From Sphaerotilus sulfidivorans (GTDB lineage: Bacteria; Pseudomonadota; Gammaproteobacteria; Burkholderiales; Burkholderiaceae_C), in assembly GCF_013426975.1 (NCBI RefSeq), contig NZ_JACCPY010000005.1, positions 1-64,000 of the forward strand: a stretch of DNA of 64,000 nt, written 5' to 3'. The notes under the pieces were generated by a model that saw only the letters and a program-made list of their open reading frames with translations, made no database searches and was not told where the DNA came from. Below, in pieces: positions 6,251 to 62,367 of the stretch. Each line of letters starts with the position of its first letter. Positions within the stretch are counted from its first letter, which is position 1. The translations under genes were made by a program, and so were the position numbers.

Positions 6251-7315
6251 TCACGTTCGGGATTCATGCTCGGGATACCAGTGGGCCAGCGCCGCGCGGC
6301 GACAGCGTTCGCGCTCGGCGCCCTGCGGCAGCCACAGCGCATGGCCGCTGGCCGCCCGGGTCAGGAAATCCAGCCAGCCGATGTGGCGGCGCAGCACGCG
6401 CTGCTGCCGGTGCGCGATCAGCGGGTTGAACAGGCCGTCGCGCGAGAAGAGCTGGCGCGGGTTCTTGCGCACCCACAGCCAGGAGCCCATCTCCAGCGTC
6501 AGCGACAGGAAGACCGCGCGGGCGTCGCGCGCCTGCGCGCCCAGGCTCAGGTGATCCCACAGGTCGCCGTGCGCGAGGTAGAGCCGGCTCTGCGGCTCGA
6601 AGACATAGGGGTGATGCACCTGGCTGGCATCGAGCAGCGCCTTCAGCGCATGCAGCTCCGGCAGCCACTCGATCGGCTCGCGCCGGCAGGCGTACGGAAA
6701 CCAGATCCGGTCATGCAGCCCGAAGCCGGAGTGGCAGTCCACCGCCAGGCTGAAGGGCCGGCCGAGCAGTTCCTGCTCGACCACCTCGCACAGCGCCTGG
6801 CTCTCGGCCTGCATCGGCGCACCGGCCGGGCCGCGGTACCAGGGCAGGGCCGCACTCAGGCGCTGGCCGCCGACCAGGAAGGGCACCCGGCCGACGGCAT
6901 CCTGCGGCGCGTTGCGCATCAGGTCGACGCCCTGCGGATTGGCGCGCGTGCCCAGCCACAGCCCGCCCGGATTGACCAGCGGCATGAAGACCAGCCTGAG
7001 CGACTCGAGCTGGCGCTGCTGCACCCGGTCCCAGGGCAGGCGGCTGACCAGTGTGCGCAGATAGGCCAGCACCACCTCGGCGCCAATGCGCTCCAGGCCG
7101 TGCACGCCGCCGAACAGGCCGACCGCCGGCGCCTGCGGATCCTCGCTGCCCATCGTCACCACCGGCACCGGAAAACGGCGGCCCGCCACCTCGACCTCGC
7201 AGGCGGTGCGCACCCGAACCCAGGGGCCGGCCTCGGCAATCAGCCGCTCCAGCTCGACCAGCGCAGCCAGCTCCAGCCGCGCTGCCTGCCGATGGACCTG
7301 ATCTGCTGCCGTCAC
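6251..7315 (-). CDS. M14-family zinc carboxypeptidase
   Basis: 354 residues from a GTG at 7315 with AAAGGG just upstream. The zinc ligands of the M14 fold are visible as H and E in GGVHGLERIG near residue 70 and H in VDCHSGFG near residue 190; the glutamate in FLSLTLEMGSW fits the general base. There is no signal peptide, so it is probably cytoplasmic. It reads toward the alpha/beta-hydrolase gene, 20 bases away, suggesting an operon. The peptide or amide substrate cannot be inferred. Confidence 0.85.
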   Translation of the reverse strand: MTAADQVHRQAARLELAALVELERLIAEAGPWVRVRTACEVEVAGRRFPVPVVTMGSEDPQAPAVGLFGGVHGLERIGAEVVLAYLRTLVSRLPWDRVQQRQLESLRLVFMPLVNPGGLWLGTRANPQGVDLMRNAPQDAVGRVPFLVGGQRLSAALPWYRGPAGAPMQAESQALCEVVEQELLGRPFSLAVDCHSGFGLHDRIWFPYACRREPIEWLPELHALKALLDASQVHHPYVFEPQSRLYLAHGDLWDHLSLGAQARDARAVFLSLTLEMGSWLWVRKNPRQLFSRDGLFNPLIAHRQQRVLRRHIGWLDFLTRAASGHALWLPQGAERERCRRAALAHWYPEHESRT

Positions 7316-7479: not shown

Positions 7480-7611
7480 ATGACCCGCGCCCGCCTGCCT
7501 CTCACGATGCGCGTGCTGACCCATCCGCTGCTGATCCTCGGCGCAGCGGCGCTGGCCGGCGCCGTGGAGATCTTCGCCCTGTGGAAATGTCGCCGCCAGC
7601 GCCAGCGCTGA
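7480..7611 (+). CDS. small single-pass membrane protein, unknown function
   Basis: A 43-codon frame from the ATG at 7480, preceded by CAGGAG at a spacing of six bases. It has a basic N-terminus, one hydrophobic segment (PLLILGAAALAGAVEIFALW) and a strongly basic tail (KCRRQRQR). It ends three bases before the first DnaA-box-like 9-mer of the candidate origin. I do not recognise the family. Good ribosome site and membrane-protein composition support it, but it is short. Confidence 0.5.
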   Translation: MTRARLPLTMRVLTHPLLILGAAALAGAVEIFALWKCRRQRQR

Positions 7612-7613
7612 GC

Positions 7614-8004
7614 TGTGGACAAGTCGAAAAATGCAGCAGGCTGCGCGGCCGTTCTTGCGATCGAGTCCTGTGGACAAGTCTGTGTATAACTCTGATGATC
7701 GTGTGCACAAGCATGATATTTCCTGTGGACAAGTTGATCTCCTGAATCGAGTCCTCAGATTTTTTATCCAATTTAATCAATGACTTGCCATCAAGTCCCC
7801 GGTTTTTCTGGACAAGTCTGTGCATGACCTGAAGAGAAGCTGTGCACAGCTTCGATGATCTGACGGTTTCTGGCTCACCTCCTTGTGATGGCCTGTGGAT
7901 AAATCTGTGGACAAGATTGTGGAGAACTGAGCCTCGCCGCTGATCTTCATGCGCAGAACGCCGCACGGCGGCCCGCTGACGACAGGCCGCCGTGCTGTGG
8001 ATAA
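7614..8004. other. candidate chromosomal replication origin (oriC): DnaA-box cluster with AT-rich core
   Basis: About eleven 9-mers equal or close to the DnaA box, all in one orientation. TGTGGATAA is at 7894 and 7996, and TGTGTATAA at 7681 (exact matches to the reverse of TTATNCACA). TGTGGACAA is at 7614, 7669, 7724 and 7906, and TGTGCACAA at 7702. Weaker forms are at 7807, 7819, 7841 and 7918. An AT-rich block at 7756-7783, with TTTTTATCCAATTTAATCAA, could be the unwinding element. The region is noncoding, 3.6 kb from mnmG-rsmG-parA, genes that flank oriC in many bacteria. Confidence 0.72.
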
Positions 8005-8053: not shown

Positions 8054-8569
8054 ATGGCGACCCCTCTGCCTTCCCTGTTCTGGACCGAGCTGGATACCCC
8101 GCTCGGCACGATGATCCTGGCGGCCCGCGGCCGGGATGAGCTGGCCGCACTGGCCGGCGCCTGGTTCGTCGGCCAGCGCCATTTCGACGGACCGCAGACC
8201 GGCTGGCAGCGCGACGATGAACACCCGCTGCTGCGCGAGGCGGCCACCCAGCTGCACGACTGGCATGCCGGCCGGCGAATCGACTTCGACCTGCCGCTGG
8301 CGCCCGAAGGCAGCACTTTCCAGCAGAGCATCTGGCAGGCCCTGAGCCGCATTCCACATGGCCGCACCTGCAGCTACGGCGAGCTGGCCGCCGCGGTCGG
8401 ACGCCCGGGTGCAGCCCGGGCGGTGGGGGCGGCCACCGGACGCAATCCGCTGTCCATCCTGGTGCCCTGCCACCGGCTGGTCGGGCGTGACGGCGCCTTG
8501 ACCGGCTATGCCGGCGGCCTCGCGCGCAAGCGCCAGCTGCTCGCCTTCGAGGCCGCCACAGGGCGCTGA
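8054..8569 (+). CDS. ogt: methylated-DNA--protein-cysteine methyltransferase
   Basis: 171 residues from the ATG at 8054 with CAGGAG seven bases upstream. The active-site motif VPCHRLVGRDG near residue 140 contains the acceptor cysteine, and FQQSIWQALSRIPHGRTCSYGELA is the DNA-binding helix-turn-helix region. It removes O6-alkyl groups from guanine in a one-turn reaction. Length fits stand-alone Ogt rather than the fused Ada regulator. The neighbouring AraC-type gene is a separate protein without the Ada zinc domain. Confidence 0.93.
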   Translation: MATPLPSLFWTELDTPLGTMILAARGRDELAALAGAWFVGQRHFDGPQTGWQRDDEHPLLREAATQLHDWHAGRRIDFDLPLAPEGSTFQQSIWQALSRIPHGRTCSYGELAAAVGRPGAARAVGAATGRNPLSILVPCHRLVGRDGALTGYAGGLARKRQLLAFEAATGR

Positions 8570-11616: not shown

Positions 11617-13614
11617 ATGCTCTACCCCCAGGAATTTGACGTCATCGTCGTCGGCGGCGGCCACGCCGGCACCGAGGCCGCACTGGCCGCTGCCCGCATG
11701 GGCTGCGCCACGCTGCTGCTGACCCACAACATCGAGACCCTCGGCCAGATGAGCTGCAACCCGTCGATCGGCGGGATCGGCAAGGGCCATCTGGTCAAGG
11801 AAGTCGACGCCCTCGGCGGCGCGATGGCGCTGGCCACCGACGAGGGCGGCATCCAGTTCCGCATCCTCAACTCGAGCAAGGGCCCGGCCGTGCGCGCCAC
11901 CCGCGCGCAGGCCGACCGCATCCTCTACAAGGCCGCGATCCGCCGCCGCCTGGAGAACCAGCCCAACCTGTCGATCTTCCAGCAGGCGGTCGACGACCTG
12001 ATGGTCGAGGGCGATGGCGAGGGCGCGCGCGTGGTCGGCGCGGTCACGCAGATCGGCATCCGCTTCAAGGCGCGGGCGGTCGTGCTGACCGCCGGCACCT
12101 TCCTGGACGGCAAGGTCCATGTCGGCCTGCAGAACCACCCGGCCGGCCGCGCGGGCGACCCGCCCGCGGTGAGCCTCTCAAGCCGGCTGAAGGAGCTGAA
12201 GCTGCCGCAGGGGCGCCTGAAGACCGGCACGCCGCCGCGCATCGACGGCCGCTCGATCGACTTCTCGAAGTGCGAGGAACAGCCCGGCGATCTCGACCCG
12301 GTGCCGGTGTTCAGCTTCCTCGGCTCGGCCGACCAGCATCCGCGCCAGGTGCCGTGCTGGATCACGCACACCAATCTGCGCACGCACGAGATCCTGCGCA
12401 GCGGCTTCGACCGCAGCCCGATGTTCACCGGCGTGATCGAAGGCGTGGGCCCGCGCTACTGCCCGTCGATCGAGGACAAGATCAACCGCTTCGCCGACAA
12501 GGACTCGCACCAGATCTTCCTGGAGCCCGAGAGCCTGACGACGACCGAGTTCTATCCGAACGGCGTCTCGACCTCGCTGCCCTTCGACGTGCAGCTGGCG
12601 GCCATCCGCTCGATGGCGGGCCTGGAGAACGCCTACATCACCCGCCCCGGCTACGCGATCGAGTACGACTACTTCGACCCGCGCGAGCTGCAGTCGAGCT
12701 TCGAGACCAAGGCGATCCGCGGCCTCTATTTCGCCGGCCAGATCAACGGCACGACCGGCTACGAGGAAGCCGCCGCGCAGGGCCTGTTCGCCGGCATCAA
12801 TGCCGCGCTGCAGGTGCGCGAGCAGGGCCCCTTCACGCTGCGCCGCGACCAGGCCTATCTGGGCGTGATGGTCGACGACCTGATCACCAAGGGCGTGACC
12901 GAGCCCTATCGCATGTTCACCAGCCGCGCCGAGTTCCGGCTGCAGCTGCGCGAGGACAACGCCGACCTGCGCCTGACCGAGCTGGGCCGCGCCATCGGGC
13001 TGATCGACGACGCCCGCTGGGACGCCTTCAACCGCAAGCGCGACGCCATCGCGCGCGAGAGCGAGCGGCTGAAGTCGACCTGGGTCTTCCCGGCCATCCT
13101 GCCGGCCGAGGCGGCCGAGCCGCTGCTGGGCAAGGCGATCGAGCGCGAATACAGCCTGGCCGACCTGTTGCGCCGCCCCGACATCACGCACGACACACTG
13201 ACCCAGGTGATGCAGACCGCCGACCGGTACCGCCCGAACCCGGCCCCGGAACTGATCATTTCACGTGAAACGCTTCGGACCCAGCTCGGCGCGACGCTGG
13301 CCGACGCGGTGATCGAGCAGGTCGAGATCGCCACCAAGTACGCCGGCTACATCGACAAGCAGAACGACGAGGTGCAGCGTGCCAGCCAGTACGAGCACCT
13401 GAAGCTGCCGCCCGAGCTGGACTACGCCCAGGTCACCGCACTGTCCTTCGAGGTCAGGCAGAAGCTCGACCGCCACCGCCCGGAAACGCTGGGCCAGGCC
13501 TCGCGCATCTCCGGTGTCACGCCGGCGGCCATCTCGCTGCTGCTGGTCCATCTGAAGAAGAACCGCTTCCGCGGCTTCACCCCCCAAGGAGACGTCGATG
13601 TCGATGCGGCCTGA
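11617..13614 (+). CDS. mnmG: tRNA uridine-5-carboxymethylaminomethyl(34) synthesis enzyme MnmG (GidA)
   Basis: 665 residues. The FAD-binding [19 protein letters not shown] lies at the N-terminus, followed by the MnmG signatures [17 protein letters not shown] and the later [21 protein letters not shown]. With MnmE it modifies wobble uridine 34 in tRNAs. ATG at 11617; a GTG one codon upstream is an alternative. The end overlaps rsmG by 17 bases, as is usual for this pair. Codons around 13255-13275 (TCA CGT GAA ACG CTT) are AT-rich for this gene because they carry a parS-like site. Confidence 0.97.
13257..13272. promoter_or_regulatory. parS: parS-like ParB-binding site inside mnmG
   Basis: The 16-mer CATTTCACGTGAAACG matches the consensus TGTTTCACGTGAAACA at 13 of 16 positions and contains the full 12-base palindrome TTTCACGTGAAA. 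It is encoded as I-S-R-E-T in MnmG using codons that are rare around it, which suggests selection at the DNA level. parS sites cluster near oriC, and this one is 5.3 kb from the candidate origin and 1.6 kb from parA. Confidence 0.68.
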
Positions 13615-14909: not shown

Positions 14910-15734
14910 ATGGCACGCATCTTCTGCATCGCGAACCAGAAAGGTGGCGTCGGCAAGACGACCACCACCGTCAATCTGGCCGCCGGTCTGGTCCGCATCG
15001 GCCAGCGCGTGCTGGTGGTCGACCTCGACCCGCAGGGCAACACCACGATGGGCTCGGGCCTGGACAAGCGTGCGCTCGAGGCGACCGTCTATGACGTGCT
15101 GATCGGCGCGGCGCCGGCCGCCGACGCGATCCAGCATGTCGAACGGGTCGGCTACGACGTGCTCGGCGCCAACCGCGAGCTGGCGGGCGCCGAGGTCGAG
15201 CTGGTCGAGATCGATCAGCGCGACCGCCGGCTCAAGCTCGCGCTGGCCGAGGTGCAGGACGACTACGACTTCATCCTGATCGACTGCCCGCCCTCGCTGA
15301 GCCTGCTGACCCTCAACGGCCTGACCTGTGCGCACGGCGTGATCGTGCCGATGCAGTGCGAGTACTTCGCGCTGGAGGGCCTGTCGGACCTGGTCAACTC
15401 GATCAAGCAGGTGCACGCCAACCTGAACCGCGAGCTGCACCTGATCGGCCTGCTGCGGGTGATGTTCGACCCGCGCATGACGCTGCAGCAGCAGGTCAGC
15501 GACCAGCTGCAGGCGCACTTCGGCGACAAGGTCTTCAAGACCATCATCCCGCGCAATGTGCGCCTGGCCGAGGCGCCCAGCTACGGCCTGCCCGGCGTGA
15601 TCTTCGATCCGACCGCCAAGGGCTCGCTGGCCTTCATCGAGTTCGCGCGCGAGATGGTCGAGCGGGTCGGCCTGCACGGCGGCCGGGGCAGCGCTGCGCC
15701 AGCGCCCGCACCGACCGCGAAGCGCAAGGCCTGA
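14910..15734 (+). CDS. parA: chromosome-partitioning ATPase ParA (Soj)
   Basis: 274 residues. The deviant Walker A motif is NQKGGVGKTTTTVNLAAGL at the N-terminus, followed by VDLDPQGNTTMGSG and FILIDCPPSLSLLTLN, as in chromosomal ParA/Soj. It drives origin segregation by ATP-dependent binding to nucleoid DNA, released by ParB. A short proline-alanine tail ends the protein. The usual next gene, parB, is missing; a convergent metallo-hydrolase starts at once instead. Confidence 0.95.
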   Translation: MARIFCIANQKGGVGKTTTTVNLAAGLVRIGQRVLVVDLDPQGNTTMGSGLDKRALEATVYDVLIGAAPAADAIQHVERVGYDVLGANRELAGAEVELVEIDQRDRRLKLALAEVQDDYDFILIDCPPSLSLLTLNGLTCAHGVIVPMQCEYFALEGLSDLVNSIKQVHANLNRELHLIGLLRVMFDPRMTLQQQVSDQLQAHFGDKVFKTIIPRNVRLAEAPSYGLPGVIFDPTAKGSLAFIEFAREMVERVGLHGGRGSAAPAPAPTAKRKA

Positions 15735-31099: not shown

Positions 31100-31263
31100 G
31101 AACAGTTCCGGGACTCAGGACGGCAAGGTTGATCGCGTCAGCCAGGTACAGCACTGATCCACGGGCCGAGTGTGTCCGCAAATGAAGAAATTCCCGTTTC
31201 CGCCATTGTTCCTGTTATGTGAACAAATTGCTAATAAATCAAAAAATGATCAATCCTTTGAAC

Positions 31264-32598
31264 ATGATCAAACCAGAATCCACGCTGGCGGCGCTGCGGC
31301 GCGGCGACCTGGCCGGCGCACGCCGGCTCGACCTGCGCGGCTGCGGTCTCGAGCAACTGCCCGAAGAGGTCTTCGCGCTGGCCGACACGCTCGAGGAACT
31401 CGATCTCGGCGACAACCGGCTGAGCGCGCTGCCCGCCGAGCTGCCGCGCCTGCACCGGCTGCGGGTGATCTTCGGCTCGGGCAACCCGTTCACCGCGCTA
31501 CCGGAAGTGCTCGGAGCCTGTGGACAACTTTCGATGGTCGGCTTCCGTGGCTGCCGGATCGACACCGTTTCCGGCGCAGCGCTGCCGCCGGCGCTGCGCT
31601 GGCTGATCCTGACCGACAACCGCATTGCACAGCTGCCGGACACGCTGGCTGAACGCCCATATCTGGAAAAACTGATGCTGGCCGGCAACCGCCTCGCGGC
31701 CCTGCCCGACCTGTCCGCCAGCCCGCATCTGGCGCTGCTGCGCCTGGCCGCGAACCGCTTTTCCACTGTCCCCGACTGGCTGGTCAGACACCCTGGTCTG
31801 GCCTGGCTGGCACTGTCCGGAAATCCATTTATCCACAGACTTGTCCACAGACCTTCATCGCCTGACATCGCCACGCTATCCCCTTGTCAGATCGAGGAAG
31901 ACCAGCTTCTTGGCGAAGGTGCTTCCGGACTTATCCACAGGGCATGGCTGCACGAGCATGCGACGATTCCGGCCCGCCCGGTCGCGCTCAAGCGCTTCAA
32001 GGCAGCGATGACCAGCGACGGCCTGCCCGACTGCGAACAGGCCGCCTGCCTGGCCGCTGCCGGCCATGCGTCGATCGTCGCCGCCGAGGCCCGGGTCGCC
32101 GATGCGCAGGGGCGCACCGAGGCGCTGGTGCTGCCGCTGCTCGGCCCGGAATTCCGCCCGCTGGCCGGCCCGCCGAGCCTCGCCTCCTGCAGTCGCGATG
32201 TCTATGTCGACGGTCTGGCCATGCCTGTGGACAAGCTGTGGATAATCCTGTCGTCGATCGCATCCGCAGTCGCCCATCTGCACCGCGTCGGCCTGATGCA
32301 TGGCGACCTCTACGCCCACAACATCCTGTGGAACGGCGAGGATCGTGCGCTGCTGAGCGACTTCGGCGCCGCCAGCTTCCTGCCCGAGGAGGCCGGACTG
32401 CGCGCCGGCCTGGAGCGGCTGGAGGTGCGCGCCTTCGGGCTGCTGGTCGAGGAGCTGCTGCAGCGCGCCGACGATCCGACCGATGCCCGCTGCACCCGCC
32501 TTGCCGCGCTGCGCGAGGACTGCCTGCAGCCGGAGGTGGCACGGCGGCCGGCGTTCGGCGAGATCAGCGCGCGGCTCGGGCCTGCCAGCGCGCGATGA
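31264..32598 (+). CDS. leucine-rich-repeat protein with protein-kinase-like domain
   Basis: About 444 residues. Seven or so LRRs fill the first 190 (LEELDLGDNRLSALPAEL, LRWLILTDNRIAQLP). A kinase fold follows: LGEGASGLIHRAWL as P-loop, VALKRFK with the ATP-binding lysine, HGDLYAHNIL as catalytic loop and LSDFGAASFL as the DFG motif. Such LRR-kinase proteins occur in Pseudomonas and Burkholderiales; the target is unknown. The start is uncertain (31219, 31246 or 31264), since none has a clear ribosome site. Five DnaA-box 9-mers lie inside the reading frame. The end overlaps the convergent DTW gene by 35 bases. Confidence 0.82.
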   Translation: MIKPESTLAALRRGDLAGARRLDLRGCGLEQLPEEVFALADTLEELDLGDNRLSALPAELPRLHRLRVIFGSGNPFTALPEVLGACGQLSMVGFRGCRIDTVSGAALPPALRWLILTDNRIAQLPDTLAERPYLEKLMLAGNRLAALPDLSASPHLALLRLAANRFSTVPDWLVRHPGLAWLALSGNPFIHRLVHRPSSPDIATLSPCQIEEDQLLGEGASGLIHRAWLHEHATIPARPVALKRFKAAMTSDGLPDCEQAACLAAAGHASIVAAEARVADAQGRTEALVLPLLGPEFRPLAGPPSLASCSRDVYVDGLAMPVDKLWIILSSIASAVAHLHRVGLMHGDLYAHNILWNGEDRALLSDFGAASFLPEEAGLRAGLERLEVRAFGLLVEELLQRADDPTDARCTRLAALREDCLQPEVARRPAFGEISARLGPASAR

Positions 32599-33229
32599 AG
32601 CGCTCGAAGCCCTCCAGCATCGGCCGGTAGCGCGCCGCATCCTGCTCCAGCTGCGCCAGCGCGGTGCAGACCGCCTCCAGCGTCGAGAGCTGGTCCGCCC
32701 GGCGGGCGCGGCGCATCGCACGGTAGCGCGGCGGCGGCAGATCCTGCAGGGCCAGCCGCGGCAGCGCCATCAGCAGCGGGTTGAGGTGCAGCATCTTCAG
32801 GCTCTTGCGCCAGGTGGCATCCAGCGCCACCAGCCGGGTCACCGCGCCAGCCTGCGCCCGACAAGGCTCTGCAGACGGCTCGGGAAGTAACCTGAATTTC
32901 GTGTTTTCCACAGCCTGCGGCGATGTCGGCGGCATCGGCGTCTGTGGATAAAGCAGCCAGGCGCCCGCACCAAGCCACTCCGACAGCGCCTGCGCATCGA
33001 AGCGCTCGCCGATCTCGAGCCGCACCCGTGCCAGACCGAGCGCCAGCAGCGCCACGCTGTTCTTCGCCTCGTGAGCCTCCAGCGGATGCTGCAGGATCAG
33101 CACCTCGATGCGGTTGTCCACAGGCGTCACCAGATCGCACAGGCAGGCGGACACCGGCCGGGCGCAGCACGGGCAGAGCGGGCGACGGGGCGTTGCTGTG
33201 AGTAACTTTGTTTCAGTCAAATCGGTCAT
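32564..33229 (-). CDS. DTW-domain tRNA-uridine aminocarboxypropyltransferase (TapT/YfiP type)
   Basis: 221 residues. The N-terminal cysteine motif is [15 protein letters not shown], followed by [17 protein letters not shown] and the family block [15 protein letters not shown], and a late [20 protein letters not shown]-domain enzymes transfer the aminocarboxypropyl group of SAM to uridine 47 of tRNA (acp3U). Its 3' end overlaps the LRR-kinase gene by 35 bases on the opposite strand. Confidence 0.9.
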
Positions 33230-33284
33230 GGGGACATGTCGCGGCCGCGCGGACGCCGGCGGCGATCCGGCGCAAGATGACGGG

Positions 33285-34295
33285 ATGATCCCAGCCTCCG
33301 AACCGATTCCGCTGTCCGTGCTCGATCTGGTGCCGATCGCCGAGGGCGGCGACGCCGCTACCGCGCTGAAGCAGGCGCTCGAGCTCGCCCGCCATGCCGA
33401 ACGCTGCGGCTACCGCCGCTACTGGCTCGCCGAGCACCACAACATGGACGGCCTGGCCTGCTCGGCCACCGCCGTGCTGATCGCGCACATCGCCGCGCAC
33501 ACCCGCACGATCCGGGTCGGCGCCGGCGGCATCATGCTGCCCAACCATGCGCCGCTGGTGGTGGCCGAGCAGTTCGGCACGCTGGCGACGCTGCATCCGG
33601 GCCGCATCGAGCTGGGCCTGGGCCGCGCGCCCGGCACCGACCGCGCGACGATGCGGGCGCTGCGGCGCTCGCTCGACAGCCGCGGCGAGGAGGCCTTTCC
33701 CGAGGATGTGGCCGAGCTGATCGGCTACCTGGACGAGGCCCGGCCCGGTGCCCCGGTGCGCGCACTGCCGGGCCAGGGCACGCAGGTGCCGGTCTGGCTG
33801 CTGGGCTCGAGCCTGTACGGCGCGCAGCTGGCGGCCTGGCTGGGCCGGCCCTACGCCTTCGCGGCGCATTTCGCGCCCGATCTGCTCGAGCAGGCAGCCG
33901 AGATCTACCGCCGCACCTTCCGCCCCTCGCCGGTCTGTCCGCACCCGCATCTGATGGTCGGCACGCAGGTGATCGTCGCCGACAGCGATGCGGCGGCGCA
34001 GCGCCTGTTCAGCTCGACGCAGCAGCGCTTTCTCGGCATGGTGCGCAACCAGCGCGGCCCGCTGCCGCCGCCGGTGGACGACTTCGACGCGCTGTGCAGC
34101 CCGCAGGAGCGCCGCCAGGTCGACCGGATGCTGGCCGAGGCCATCGTCGGCGCACCGCACACGGTGCGCTCCGGCCTGCGCGCGCTGGTCGAACGCACGC
34201 AGGCCGACGAGATCATCCTGACCGGCGCGACCTTCGATCCGGCTGCACGGCTGCGCTCGCTGGAGCTGGCCATCGGCTGTGCAGGGCCGAATTGA
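33285..34295 (+). CDS. luciferase-like flavin-dependent oxidoreductase (LLM class)
   Basis: 336 residues from the ATG at 33285. Family blocks are [20 protein letters not shown] near residue 47, [21 protein letters not shown] and [16 protein letters not shown], all typical of single-domain group-1 LLM proteins of the YhbW type. It uses reduced FMN in an oxidation of unknown substrate. It lies 55 bases after the divergent DTW gene start. Confidence 0.9.
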
Positions 34296-34318
34296 TCACA
34301 GCTTTTCAACAATCTTGA

Positions 34319-35083
34319 TCACACCTTGTCCACAGACTTATCCACAGGATTGACATCAGTTTCATCAGAAGCATCTCCCGGTTCTGCGCCATCCTTGTGC
34401 AATCGATCCGGGTCCAGAAGCTCGATGACGCGACGACGGCGACGGATCAGTCCATCCGCCTCCAGCCCGGCCAGCACCTCGTTGACCGTCTGGCGCGACA
34501 GCGACAGCATGCGCGCGAGCTGCTCCTGCGACAGCGTGAGTTCGCGGCGCAGCGTCGGCCGGTCGACCTGGTGATCGGCGGCCATCATCACCAGCCGACG
34601 GGCCACCCGGGCGCGCGGCGGCAGCATCTGCATCTGCTCGAAGGAAACGAAGACGCTGCGCATCTTGCCGGCCAGCATGCGGCCCAGATGTCGCCAGCCC
34701 TCGGGCTCGCGCTCGAGCACCGCCAGCATGACGATCTGCGGCAGGTGCAGCAGAACGACATCGGTCTCGGCATGCACATCGTGCGTGCGCGGCGAACCGT
34801 CGAACAGGCCGACCTCGCCGAACCAGTGCGGCGGCTGGACCATCGCCAGCAGCGCCTCGCCCCCATTGCCAGTGCTGCCGACACGCAGGATGCCGTCGGA
34901 CAGGCCGTAGAGCCCGTCGGGCGGATCGCCACGCGCGCACAGCCGCTCGCCGGCCTGCAGGAACAGCGGCCGGGCACGGCACGCCAGCTCGGCCTGCAGC
35001 GCGGCCGGCAGTGTCTGGAACCAGCTCCCGGGCGCGATCAGCGCGCGCCCGAACCTCGGCTCGCCGAATTCACGGTGCAGCAT
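34319..35083 (-). CDS. Crp/Fnr-family transcriptional regulator
   Basis: 254 residues from the ATG at 35083. The cyclic-nucleotide-binding-like domain has FLQAGERLCARGDPPDGLYG and HWFGEVGLFDGSPRTHDV. The C-terminal winged helix is LTLSQEQLARMLSLSRQTVN. No Fnr cysteine cluster is present. The last residues (NPVDKSVDKV) are encoded by a tandem pair of DnaA-box 9-mers, so the tail looks shaped by that DNA element. Regulon unknown. Confidence 0.9.
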   Translation of the reverse strand: MLHREFGEPRFGRALIAPGSWFQTLPAALQAELACRARPLFLQAGERLCARGDPPDGLYGLSDGILRVGSTGNGGEALLAMVQPPHWFGEVGLFDGSPRTHDVHAETDVVLLHLPQIVMLAVLEREPEGWRHLGRMLAGKMRSVFVSFEQMQMLPPRARVARRLVMMAADHQVDRPTLRRELTLSQEQLARMLSLSRQTVNEVLAGLEADGLIRRRRRVIELLDPDRLHKDGAEPGDASDETDVNPVDKSVDKV

Positions 35084-59004: not shown

Positions 59005-60042
59005 GGTGGACGCCACTTTATTGCAACCTTGCAAGATCATTGATGGCTTGAAAATCGAATGATTTGTGACTGAAATGCGTGTAATTCCTGAACTGAGGAC
59101 TTGTCGCCCGCGCGCTCCAAGAGACCGGAGAGAGGGAAGGAGGGAGCGAAGGGGCAAGCCTCGACCCTGCACGCCGCGGCGGTGAAGCCGCGCAGGCGTG
59201 TCGGGCTGGCCCCTGGGCGTGGACGGCGTGACGCGGACCATCGGTCGGTCAGTCGGTCGCATTCGGGGGTCGCGGGCGGTTTCGACGCGCGCGACAGGCT
59301 GCCTTCAGGGCTCGAACGCCCCACCACACCCGTGACAGCTTGCGCCTCTGGGTCGCCGGTGTCGTGGTTCCCGCTCTACCGGCGTGACGAGTCCGCGCGC
59401 CGAGCCGGGACGCGCACAGGGGGCGACAAGTCCGTGGAAGAGAACCCCTGTGGCGTGACGTGCAGACGCGCGAACGCCGACGGGCGCCCCGAGAAAGTCA
59501 GGGGGCGCGCGGAGTCGGTCGGTCCGTGGTGGGCGGAGTCAGCGCAGGCGTGGCGGGCGGCGCAGCCAGCAGGGGATCAGACGAGCGGGGAAATGGAGGG
59601 CGTCAGCCATGAATGGCTCCAAGCGACAGGGTTTGAACCTGCTGCTCCTCCCTGCCAAGAGAGGGGCGGCAGACCGTGCAGGTTGGCAGACCGGGCTTGG
59701 ACCGGCAGGGGTTGCCCCCTCCCACACGGCCCGCCATAGACGAAGCCATGCGCGCAGCTCACTCCCCATCGGGACGTGAAAAAGCCGCGTCGGGCGCGGC
59801 TGCTGCGCCAAGCTACCGGGCTGCCAAGCCCGTGCCCGCAGTGGGTGCGAGCGGGGCGAATGCTACACCGACGCCAAGGGGCAGTGGTCTGCTCAGCATG
59901 TTGTTACATGTGAGGGGCTGGCGAACGGGGGGGCCGCAGTGGACGAGCGGATCCGGGCGCGGGTATGCTTTTCCGCATTTCGGGGCGTAACGGGTTGCGC
60001 CAGCAGTGCAGGCTTTGGGGTCGTTTTTACGAGGAGCAAACC
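59005..60042. other. noncoding region left of the AT-rich island, with possible structured RNA on the minus strand
   Basis: About one kilobase with no convincing gene. 59005-59100 is moderately AT-rich and must hold the HAD promoter. 59100-59560 is very GC-rich and shows nothing clear. 59590-59900 has hairpins, including GCCAT-GA-ATGGC, a T-arm-like GCAGG-TTCAAAC-CCTGT on the minus strand, a repeated GGCAGACCG (59668, 59686), and a terminator at 59779-59801. Frames here have unnatural composition and I do not call them. Confidence 0.5.
59779..59801 (-). terminator. intrinsic terminator, minus strand
   Basis: Stem AGCCGCG (59783-59789) and CGCGGCT (59795-59801) with a 5-base loop, followed on the minus strand by five T residues. 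It would end a leftward transcript from within 59.8 to 60.0 kb, where no protein gene is seen, hinting at a short RNA. A TAGCAT-like -10 lies about 65 bases upstream. Confidence 0.6.
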
Positions 60043-60141
60043 ATGCAAGACAGAGAAAAACTTCAATCCCGGCACGGACTTACGTTCCGCAGTCCGAAAG
60101 CTGATATGCAGCATCTTGGTTGTTACGCCAAAAAGGCGTAA
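60043..60141 (+). CDS. possible 32-residue small protein or leader at the island edge
   Basis: ATG at 60043 with GAGGAG seven bases upstream, an unusually good ribosome site. The peptide begins MQDREKLQSRHGLTFRSPKA, is basic and uses AT-rich codons like the island genes. The stop TAA lies inside a perfect hairpin (60122-60142). It could be a regulatory leader of the two-gene system, a small partner, or a fragment of a lost gene. Confidence 0.4.
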   Translation: MQDREKLQSRHGLTFRSPKADMQHLGCYAKKA

Positions 60142-60142
60142 C
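60122..60142. promoter_or_regulatory. perfect hairpin upstream of the two-gene island operon
   Basis: GTTACGCC (60122-60129) and GGCGTAAC (60135-60142) enclose AAAAA, 44 bases before the start of the first island gene. GGCGTAAC also occurs at 59985-59992. It may be an attenuator, an operator, or a recombination-site remnant. Confidence 0.5.
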
Positions 60143-60185
60143 TTTGATATTACACCACACATACTCGTAATTATTAAGGACTTTT

Positions 60186-61130
60186 ATGGGTGAACGATCC
60201 AAGAAAATTGGAGAAATCGGCGAGAATATCGTCGAAAATTTTTTTAGTTTAATAGGATGGGAATCTGTTATCCCAAATCAATCATTAAAATGCCGAAAAC
60301 CACAAAAACATGCAAGAAGCGGAACCAAAGGAAACAGAGAAACACATGGAATTGATTTCTCTTTTTGCTACAAAAGCCCCCTTGAAAGCTCCACCATTGA
60401 AACCATTATTATTTCGGTAAAGCATACAGGCGAGCCCTATGAAGCAAGCCCAAAACATACTTTCAAAAAACATGCAGAAGACCTTGTCTACACTCTGGAG
60501 TGCTATAAAAACTCAGAGCTAAAAAAGTCACAAATAGAATCTTTTGGTCGGGTCATTAAAACCAAAGACACCGGCGTATTATTCTGGATATCCAGCAGCA
60601 ACAACACCTATGACGACGTTGTATCAAAATTATCAAACACTCGATTGGATCCGGAATGGATTTTCGAGTCATTCCATATTGTTGACAATAAACGGATAAG
60701 ATTTATATACGAAACAATAAAATTTCTCCACACTTCAATTGATCGTGAAAACATCAACTTCTACTATCCAGAAACAGCACTAAGCTACGTTGATAATACA
60801 ATTTCAAGATTTGGCAAAGTTTGTCCAGTTGAATTTTTAACATCACCCATTCTTCCATTAATTATAAAACCATCGAATCCCACAGAACAGGATATATTTT
60901 GCCTCTCCTCTATTGACCAATTTGACTGCGATGGCTTAAAAAGATTAATTCGAGCCGCAAGAGAATACACGCAAGACATCAGCTGTCAATACCTATTAAT
61001 TTTTCCAAATTATACTAAACTCGAACATCTTGAAGCAGTCAAAAGTGCATTCATTGGGTTAGATCCATCATTCACATCTAGAATTTCGATTCAATCGTAT
61101 CGGCCAGACTTCAGGAGTCTTGATAAATGA
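60186..61130 (+). CDS. PD-(D/E)XK-like nuclease of a two-gene defence pair (GapS4a-like)
   Basis: 314 residues from the ATG at 60186 with AAGGA six bases upstream. The N-terminus MGERSKKIGEIGENIVENFF, then THGIDFSFCYKSP, then ETIIISVKHTGEP fits a PD-(D/E)XK nuclease: helix glutamate E13, D57 and S77-x-K79. The opening and spacing match what I remember of GAPS4a proteins, part of a two-gene antiphage system first seen in Vibrio elements; this is from memory, not a search. The rest is helical without known motifs. Base composition is far more AT-rich than the flanks. It overlaps the next gene by four bases. Confidence 0.7.
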   Translation: MGERSKKIGEIGENIVENFFSLIGWESVIPNQSLKCRKPQKHARSGTKGNRETHGIDFSFCYKSPLESSTIETIIISVKHTGEPYEASPKHTFKKHAEDLVYTLECYKNSELKKSQIESFGRVIKTKDTGVLFWISSSNNTYDDVVSKLSNTRLDPEWIFESFHIVDNKRIRFIYETIKFLHTSIDRENINFYYPETALSYVDNTISRFGKVCPVEFLTSPILPLIIKPSNPTEQDIFCLSSIDQFDCDGLKRLIRAAREYTQDISCQYLLIFPNYTKLEHLEAVKSAFIGLDPSFTSRISIQSYRPDFRSLDK

Positions 61131-62251
61131 ATTACGAAAATCATGAGGAAGTACTGCTTCCAACACGGGACTTTCTTCGCCAATTAATTGGTCAACCCAA
61201 AGTAAAAAATACTGATTTAAAATCTATTTTAAGATCTAGGGGCGTTTTCACCGGAAGTGATGAAAAAGAAATAGTTGGGCCAATCCTTATCAAAACAGGC
61301 CTTTCTCCTGTAGAGTACATCGATTTACGAGAAAATTATAAAAGCAAAGAAGAATCACCGAAACTAAAAACACGAACAATTGCATGGAGCACCGCCACCC
61401 CGTTAATTGAAGCAATTCCGGAAAATATTAATTACGATACCATATTAAATGATAAATTTGGCGTTATATCAATCAGAAAATTAACAGGATTTACCGCACT
61501 CGAAGACAATTCGGACCATATTTATATGGATTTTGAACTATCGAGAAGCGATGCAATTAAAAATATTGGTGAAAATATTTCCAGCCACCAAGGCAGAGTT
61601 GAAATCCGGCGAGACCCGTCAGATAATTTATTAAATATTTCAATAATGCACACGGCATCCGAAACACGAGACTTTAGCCACAAAATCACAAATCACTTGA
61701 TAAAGCACTTTAAAGATGAAGGCCATATTGATAAACATGAGCAAGTAAAAGTAATTCGCTTTAATGATTTTGACAACACTGGCAGAATATTATTTTTAAG
61801 TGAGTTAACGCAACGAGTCCAAGCAACTGCACTCACATTTGTAGACACAAAAGATATTCACTTTTCCCCAGACAATTCAATAAAAGATCCTCCCCCCAAC
61901 ATAGCTTGGATGAAAGATAAAATTGAAGACATGAAGATTAAAGGCACTGATCTTCATTCAACATTTTTTGTAAAGGATGCAGAATCCCATCCATTTATTC
62001 AACTATTTGGACTGCAGTGTGATTATAACTTTTCACTCGACAAATCAGAAGGAACTTGCCGTATACTTTTTGAGTTTTCAGAAACCGACGAATACAATAA
62101 TGTAGAACTCGTCCTAAATCTTTCTTTACTAAAAATGGAAGCAAATGACTCTGGCATCTCGAGAAACATAATAAAAAGAAAATTGCTAGAATCGCTTGAA
62201 AATTTTAAATTGGAAACCTATGAAAAATATAGAACAAAACAAGTTGCATAA
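61127..62251 (+). CDS. partner protein of the defence pair (GapS4b-like)
   Basis: 374 residues, starting in the four-base overlap ATGA. The N-terminus PTRDFLRQLIGQPKVKNTDL followed by LRSRGVFTGSDEKEIVGPIL suggests a small helical, SAP- or winged-helix-like domain. The rest is beta-rich with no catalytic motif I can see. It resembles my memory of GAPS4b proteins. It would act as a sensor or targeting subunit for the nuclease; this is inferred from the pairing. Confidence 0.65.
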   Translation: MNYENHEEVLLPTRDFLRQLIGQPKVKNTDLKSILRSRGVFTGSDEKEIVGPILIKTGLSPVEYIDLRENYKSKEESPKLKTRTIAWSTATPLIEAIPENINYDTILNDKFGVISIRKLTGFTALEDNSDHIYMDFELSRSDAIKNIGENISSHQGRVEIRRDPSDNLLNISIMHTASETRDFSHKITNHLIKHFKDEGHIDKHEQVKVIRFNDFDNTGRILFLSELTQRVQATALTFVDTKDIHFSPDNSIKDPPPNIAWMKDKIEDMKIKGTDLHSTFFVKDAESHPFIQLFGLQCDYNFSLDKSEGTCRILFEFSETDEYNNVELVLNLSLLKMEANDSGISRNIIKRKLLESLENFKLETYEKYRTKQVA

Positions 62252-62266
62252 ATAACCATTGCGTCT

Positions 62267-62367
62267 ATTAAACCGGCAACTATCTCTATGACATAAATTC
62301 GACGTTTTCCTTGCAAATCAAGGACTTGCAAATTTTTCAATATAATGCTTTTGATTGCCGGTTTAAT
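62267..62367. repeat. long inverted repeat after the defence pair
   Basis: ATTAAACCGGCAA (62267-62279) and TTGCCGGTTTAAT (62355-62367) are perfect 13-base arms 75 bases apart; with one bulge the pairing continues through GACG on the outside. The interval contains a tandem CTTGCAAATCAAGGACTTGCAAAT. It could be a structured 3' end, a small mobile relic, or an island border. Confidence 0.65.

Follow-up and report, generated by a model that had tools for sequence, protein, structure and literature searches.

A conserved cluster of putative DnaA boxes upstream of ogt in the origin region of a Sphaerotilus-group genome is very probably not the replication origin

This locus raises the question of whether a 391-bp intergenic stretch crowded with DnaA-box-like sequences is the chromosomal replication origin, as the preliminary description proposed, or something else. 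The window analysed comprises bases 1 to 64,000 of contig C101 (235,398 bp) in the 126-contig, 4.39-Mb draft assembly of a betaproteobacterium of the Sphaerotilus/Leptothrix group, order Burkholderiales (G000); the comparison genomes are numbered in the same way. The closest relatives are G010 and G001 (97% MnmG identity), and the names taken for the relatives are Sphaerotilus natans ATCC 13338 (G010), Leptothrix sp. C29 (G001), and S. hippei DSM 566 (G003). The gene names mnmG, rsmG, and parA come from the ORF translations, and mnmG was confirmed via its relatives. Boxes are 9-mers with at most one mismatch to TGTGNATAA, strict boxes are TGTGGAYAA, and strict pairs are TGTGNAYAA-N3-TGTGNAYAA, with the reversed pattern as control. 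The consensus sequences with which DnaA boxes, trios, IHF sites, and parS were scored are those that we take to be the accepted ones; the trio idea alone was checked in the literature.

The array is located directly upstream of ogt and fills the DNA between this gene and a 43-aa ORF. The features of the locus are as follows.

6254 to 7315, minus strand: left neighbour, M14-type zinc carboxypeptidase-like protein (PF00246, 47 bits)
7480 to 7611, plus strand: 43-aa ORF directly upstream of the array, 98% identical in G010
7614 to 8004, minus strand: DnaA-box cluster of ten 9-mers with at most one mismatch to TTATNCACA (consensus scan, aligned with G010); starts in plus-strand numbering 7614, 7669, 7681, 7702, 7724, 7819, 7894, 7906, 7918, and 7996
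7669 to 7689, minus strand: head-to-tail box pair with 12-bp spacing (box scan and strict-pair search)
7756 to 7783, no strand: AT-rich block, 22 of 28 A/T (counted by eye)
7775 to 7787, plus strand: IHF-consensus site AATCAATGACTTG (presumed consensus WATCAANNNNTTR), between boxes 7724 and 7819
7894 to 7926, minus strand: box triple at 12-bp spacing (7894, 7906, and 7918), with 7894/7906 as strict pair; all three are also boxes in G010
8054 to 8569, plus strand: right neighbour ogt, 6-O-methylguanine-DNA methyltransferase-type protein (PF01035, 116 bits)

The 43-aa ORF is without a Pfam match and has one hydrophobic stretch (by eye), and ORFs resembling it are seen by eye in the intergenic DNA near the boxes of G001 and G008.

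Three of the ten boxes match TGTGNATAA exactly (7681, 7894, and 7996) and seven have one mismatch (7614, 7669, 7702, 7724, 7819, 7906, and 7918). The earlier tally of three exact and five one-mismatch forms is therefore right in its first figure and too low in its second. All ten boxes have a single orientation, as had been described; the eleven same-facing 9-mers counted then become ten, plus two-mismatch forms at 7807 and 7841 that face the same way. The 12-base pairs reported earlier, 7669/7681 and 7894/7906, are real, with 7906/7918 as a third such pair, and the AT-rich block described at 7756 to 7783 is also confirmed by the count given above; the lowest-GC 60-mer of the cluster starts at 7716 (35% GC). 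The enrichment is pronounced: the window holds 34 such 9-mers versus 6.3 ± 2.1 in 100 dinucleotide shuffles (largest 12), and ten of the 34 fall within the 391-bp stretch (binomial, about 1e-14), which is thus a cluster of DnaA boxes of the kind looked for in a chromosomal oriC. The strict pair occurs six times in the 4.39-Mb draft (reversed control 0), each time on C101 and between 7.6 and 72.3 kb. Exact IHF-consensus matches number two in 64 kb, versus 0.1 expected, and one of them is the site at 7775 to 7787, which is flanked by DnaA boxes on both sides, as is the IHF site of datA. The genome encodes DnaA (TIGR00362) and both IHF subunits, the latter as two PF00216 proteins, which a datA-like site would also call for; IHF alpha passes both equivalog models, and IHF beta passes NF001222 (141.6 versus 115) and is slightly below TIGR00988 (114.5 versus 119.95).

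All ten box positions are kept in G010, where 86 of the 90 box bases are identical, compared with 262 of the 351 other intergenic bases; randomly placed sets of ten 9-mers equal this box identity in 4 of 20,000 trials. The four changed bases either affect positions that vary among boxes or bring a box closer to the consensus. The spacing of the shared strong boxes is unchanged from 7614 to 7918, and the counterpart of 7996 is one base nearer. As judged from this alignment, constraint acts on the putative boxes of G000 and G010, which are not decaying. The IHF consensus is also largely preserved in G010 (AATCAATGGCTTG, 12 of 13 bases in the alignment) and has one mismatch in G001 (by eye), and no IHF site was seen by eye in the G008 counterpart of the cluster. 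The strong boxes flanked by the genes for the M14 peptidase and ogt number nine in G010, five in G001, and three in G008. Two scattered boxes are found in G002, and among the named genomes at least five boxes occur at 2 of the 75 M14 loci for which the upstream 1,500 bp were complete, both being G010 and G001 again. On the genomes compared, the array is lineage-restricted, and it is not kept across the genus as an oriC would be expected to be. Because only single strong boxes are found upstream of mnmG in G003, G011, and G012, a small group in G009, and five boxes in G007, in DNA where neither M14 nor ogt was matched, any role of the array in timing could not be essential genus-wide.

An origin is also expected at the minimum of the cumulative GC skew. 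On C101 the skew, which is contig-level only because the assembly is a draft, falls through 7614 to 8004 and reaches its lowest point where the 80 to 84 kb bin ends when 4-kb bins are used, and at 72 to 80 kb with 8-kb bins; the cluster is not at this minimum. In G001 the skew falls from 75 kb to its lowest value in the 156.5 to 161.5 kb bin, and the homologous cluster is at 85.1 to 85.7 kb. In the main contig of G008 (4.83 Mb), sampling gave a negative skew in all 11 stretches between 0 and 1.70 Mb and a positive skew in all nine between 1.80 and 4.20 Mb. The minimum is in the 1,775 to 1,780 kb bin, and the positions of dnaA and mnmG are 1.326 and 1.948 Mb, respectively. The skew is thus negative through the cluster in G000 and G001, the minimum is far from the cluster in G000, G001, and G008, and in these genomes it is also not at dnaA. 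The preliminary description had named a skew minimum and read-depth maximum far from the cluster, for example at dnaA, as the observation that would speak against its proposal; a distant skew minimum is what G000, G001, and G008 show, and in one relative, G009, the minimum is near dnaA.

A further feature looked for in an origin is the DnaA-trio module, a known origin-unwinding core; it is not displayed by all known origins. A first regular expression requiring five or more trios gave no match in nine sequence sets; it was then relaxed so that CTACTA following a box and preceding an AT-rich tail sufficed, and the whole-genome pattern (a DnaA box, exactly 14 nt, CTACTA, then an AT-rich tail) was derived from those matches. 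The matches in the seven genomes that supplied the pattern are therefore no independent test of it. Many bacterial origins have a DnaA box, a spacer (most commonly 13 bp), and DnaA-trios, according to the relevant excerpt of PMC8287927. The positions found here are listed below.

C101:82,789 to 82,817, minus strand: trio module of G000, the single match in the 4.39-Mb draft (reversed control 0)
C101:82836: IHF-consensus site AATCAACGACTTG beside the putative oriC
G008, 1,785,742: trio module
G001, 158,174: trio module
G010, C23:345,067: trio module
G003, 89,789: trio module
G019, 1,608,223: trio module
G009, 4,753,820 and 4,754,166: trio modules

The G000 module is 75 kb from the cluster and 18.8 kb beyond the end of the window, inside the 4-kb bin (80 to 84 kb) at the end of which the C101 skew is lowest, between a substrate-binding-protein-like gene (by eye) and a SET-domain gene, and further boxes are found at C101 83,037 and 83,051. 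No trio module was found on the whole dnaA contig C121, in the portion of G010 contig C35 holding the homologue of the cluster, or in 20 mononucleotide shuffles of C101. From this anatomy and the skew, oriC is likely to be at about C101:82.7 to 83.06 kb. The module is found in 10 of the 12 other genomes of the genus (all except G002 and G007; reversed control 0 in all 13), in 17 of 35 further family members, and in 1 of 32 genomes of other families; with G000 included, 28 of 48 family genomes match, and the reversed control matches in 2 of these 48 and in 10 of the 32, and single matches may be false because they are mostly placed without a skew comparison. Module and dnaA share a contig in 15 of the 28 matching family genomes, 27 to 460 kb apart in 13 (293 kb in G010) and 1.2 to 1.3 kb apart in two (G023 and G045). 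The module shares a contig with mnmG in 22 of the 28, at distances of 11 to 163 kb.

The distance from module to skew minimum is within about 20 kb in G000, G001, G008, and G019, and about 30 kb in G003. In G019 the minimum of the 1.48 to 1.68 Mb region is at 1,590 to 1,600 kb (10-kb bins), and 5-kb bins from 1.52 Mb give a lower value at 1,540 to 1,545 kb. In G003 the minimum is at 112 to 122 kb, 22 to 32 kb past the module (89.8 kb), with a local dip at 82 to 92 kb. The clearest result against an oriC at the module in every genus member is that of G009: when the skew is followed from 4.652 Mb via the contig end to 0.120 Mb, the minimum is at 20 to 30 kb, near dnaA (0.6 kb), about 180 kb from the module, where only a local dip is seen. 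Either G009 is rearranged or its origin is different; it is without the M14-ogt cluster, and its skew conflict is no help to the cluster as an origin.

The absence of dnaA from the window, reported earlier, is confirmed, the gene being on contig C121, and the idea of an origin detached from dnaA is probably right, as indicated by the module together with the skew minima in G000, G001, and G008. Its placement at 7614 to 8004 does not hold: the region was discarded as oriC because of the skew, the missing trio module, and the poor conservation, and it is very probably not the origin. An oriC at dnaA is not favoured in G000, where the skew in the 4-kb bins flanking dnaA is positive to its left and right (binned over the first 140 kb of C121) and the whole of this contig is without a trio module, and in G008 the skew is negative on both sides of dnaA. 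In Burkholderia cenocepacia chromosome 1 the exact origin is described as unclear, and a box cluster close to the skew minimum may be a better marker of it than the predicted origin, according to an excerpt of PMC4948915. No literature on a Sphaerotilus or Leptothrix replication origin was found among open-access papers.

The genes named earlier as pointing away from the cluster, mnmG (11614, plus strand), rsmG (13598, plus strand), and parA (14910, plus strand), do so in the ORF list, and the parS-like site said to be within 8 kb of it is present as a 16-mer at 13257 with three mismatches. Sites with at most one mismatch were found in or beside mnmG-rsmG in four of the seven genomes searched, 20 to 165 kb from the trio module, and none in G000, G001, or G010.

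G019, 1,628,826 to 1,629,976: parS
G009, 4,703,934 to 4,706,769: parS
G003, C1:63,028 to 63,265: parS
G008, 1,950,755: parS

The parA-like ORF (14910 to 15734) follows rsmG, and the best ParB_N match of the genome is at C121:46031, about 25 kb from dnaA, so that parA and this best-match parB are not adjacent. At the far end of the window, 60000 to 62300 is an AT-rich island (36 to 38% GC per kb versus about 70% for the contig) that looks acquired; its ORFs (314 and 374 aa) gave no Pfam or PADLOC match.

The cluster is one of several box groups on this side of the putative origin. The genome has 51 strict boxes (reversed control 9), and 31 of them are in C101 7.6 to 83.1 kb, a 76-kb region that ends at the putative origin and makes up 1.7% of the genome. 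The groups are at 7.6, 31 to 34, 72, 77, and 81 to 83.6 kb, so that, given the predicted oriC, several clusters are near it and outside it, as in B. subtilis. The second group of the window is the following.

31218 to 34346, no strand: box group of mixed orientation, syntenic with the 14-box cluster of G008 at 1,811.6 to 1,814.1 kb

Its boxes are distributed over an LRR-kinase-like gene, the ORF that follows, and the DNA on the far side of a luciferase-like monooxygenase gene. It was considered as oriC because the 14-box cluster of G008 is its homologue, and this was dropped once the trio module was found at 82.8 kb. The synteny with G008 is preserved despite rearrangement (31 to 34 kb corresponds to 1,811 to 1,814 kb, 72 kb to 1,759.7 kb, 77 kb to 1,779.7 kb, and 81 to 83 kb to 1,785 to 1,786 kb), and it extends to groups in G001 and G010. 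Strict boxes number 40 to 70 in G000, G001, G008, and G010 versus 16 to 29 in G003, G009, and G012, with 16 in G009 and 70 in G008 as the extremes. A separate DnaA-box-like array is found near dnaA, where there is no skew turn: C121:23147 to 23203 (L009:3147 to 3203) has five TGTGGATAA/TGTGGAAAA/TGTGGATGA boxes at 12-bp spacing just past an rpmH-like ORF, and the frame in which they lie also codes for the initial VDNSVEKSVDESVEKVVEN stretch of an RnpA-like ORF (both ORFs named by eye).

On these data, 7614 to 8004 is a conserved DnaA-box cluster in the origin region, consisting of putative binding sites. By analogy with known systems, the most economical reading would be a DnaA sink or a site of DnaA-ATP inactivation that doubles soon after initiation. 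That the cluster acts as such an origin-proximal satellite, titrating or inactivating DnaA, is in our judgement about evenly balanced. DnaA would bind the boxes head to tail, and IHF would bend the AT-rich middle, joining the two half-arrays. Because the locus would be copied soon after firing, its doubling, together with that of other clusters, might absorb or inactivate DnaA-ATP and so delay re-initiation at oriC. The mode of action would be like that of the oriC-proximal DnaA-box clusters (DBCs) of Bacillus subtilis, reportedly described by Okumura et al. in 2012, or of E. coli datA.

Several DBCs outside yet near oriC, as found here, are thought to lower free DnaA in B. subtilis, according to excerpts of PMC5295017 and PMC10950094. 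The present case differs in that the host is a betaproteobacterium with a putative origin away from dnaA, in that ten same-strand boxes are combined with an IHF-consensus site, and in the concentration of strict boxes on one side of that origin. The precedent itself is disputed: removal of all six Bacillus clusters causes early initiation, with a strong effect only when all six are gone, and the same review, PMC5295017, elsewhere denies the clusters a significant role in initiation. Clusters of Bacillus and Streptomyces are called analogous to datA in a passage of PMC10950094. The likeness to datA is in the array with an IHF site between boxes, in a genome encoding IHF; datA depends on its boxes 2 and 3 and on the IHF site (PMC4585315, in part). 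Different are the ten boxes instead of five and the gene neighbours, which for datA are glyV-X-Y and queG in the excerpt of PMC10950094. The distance of the cluster from the putative oriC, 75 kb, is also different. E. coli datA is much further from oriC than this. The sink reading is weakened because G008 keeps three strong boxes with no IHF site seen, because the array abuts ogt, and because of the G009 skew.

The leading alternative is that the ogt promoter is controlled by DnaA, which would repress or activate ogt or the 43-aa ORF and couple repair-gene expression to the replication cycle; we regard this as unlikely. It would agree with the location of the array, which occupies the DNA between these two ORFs, with the flanking of the boxes by M14 and ogt in G010, G001, and G008, and with one promoter-like match inside the array at 7671 to 7699. 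This match is weak (9 of 12, with 0.2 expected), ten boxes over 390 bp exceed in our judgement what a simple operator needs, and in G001 the boxes persist despite about 1.4 kb of other DNA, coding-looking by eye, between the last box and the ogt match.

It is improbable that the boxes have accumulated neutrally, being tolerated near the origin and avoided elsewhere. Many near-origin boxes are within ORFs, the strict-box totals vary strongly by species, and the denial of a significant role for the Bacillus clusters in part of PMC5295017 would be in line with this; against it are the better conservation of box bases than of their surroundings and the same-strand order shared by G000 and G010.

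Quite improbable is a relic or back-up origin, that is, an older oriC or a duplicate which has lost its unwinding module and retained DnaA binding. The IHF sites AATCAATGACTTG and AATCAACGACTTG, the latter beside the putative oriC, differ at one base, and the parS-like 16-mer at 13257 is closer to the cluster than to that oriC. The constraint on the boxes between G000 and G010 speaks against decay of this kind, as does the finding that other genus members have the module, yet only single boxes upstream of mnmG.

A DARS-like site, promoting ADP-to-ATP exchange on DnaA and thereby stimulating initiation, is hardly probable. E. coli DARS1 and DARS2 also have DnaA boxes outside oriC, joined in DARS2 with IHF sites (PMC4585315, in part), but the box arrangement is different from the three-box DARS core.

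An identification of the cluster as the chromosomal oriC, remote from dnaA, is very improbable: the cluster resembles bacterial origins as outlined in an excerpt of PMC8287927 in its intergenic position, same-strand boxes, AT-rich block, and IHF-like site, with mnmG, parA, and the parS-like site within 8 kb and parS at mnmG-rsmG in four of seven genomes, but the trio module and the skew turn are at or near C101:82.8 kb and not here, and the array is not retained across the genus. An integrated plasmid origin was set aside, as visual inspection of the ORFs around the cluster revealed no replication-initiator gene.

A wider proposal, which goes beyond the titrating or inactivating site and is possible though doubtful, is that initiation control in the S. 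natans lineage is spread over a one-sided array of roughly 75 kb, comprising the five box groups and ending at an oriC that hundreds of kb separate from dnaA. Under this proposal, a betaproteobacterium would have, in the 7.6-kb cluster with its IHF site, an inactivation site resembling datA, and the array would gauge the distance that the fork has travelled from the origin.

An origin finder guided by the densest box cluster of the window would be wrong by 75 kb, and one guided by dnaA might err by hundreds of kb. The oriC position derived from the trios, which the skew supports in four genomes and with less clarity in one more, is an immediate target for read-depth analysis. With 40 to 70 strict boxes per genome in some members versus 16 to 29 in others, the lineage provides a natural contrast on whether DnaA titration near oriC sets the timing of initiation.
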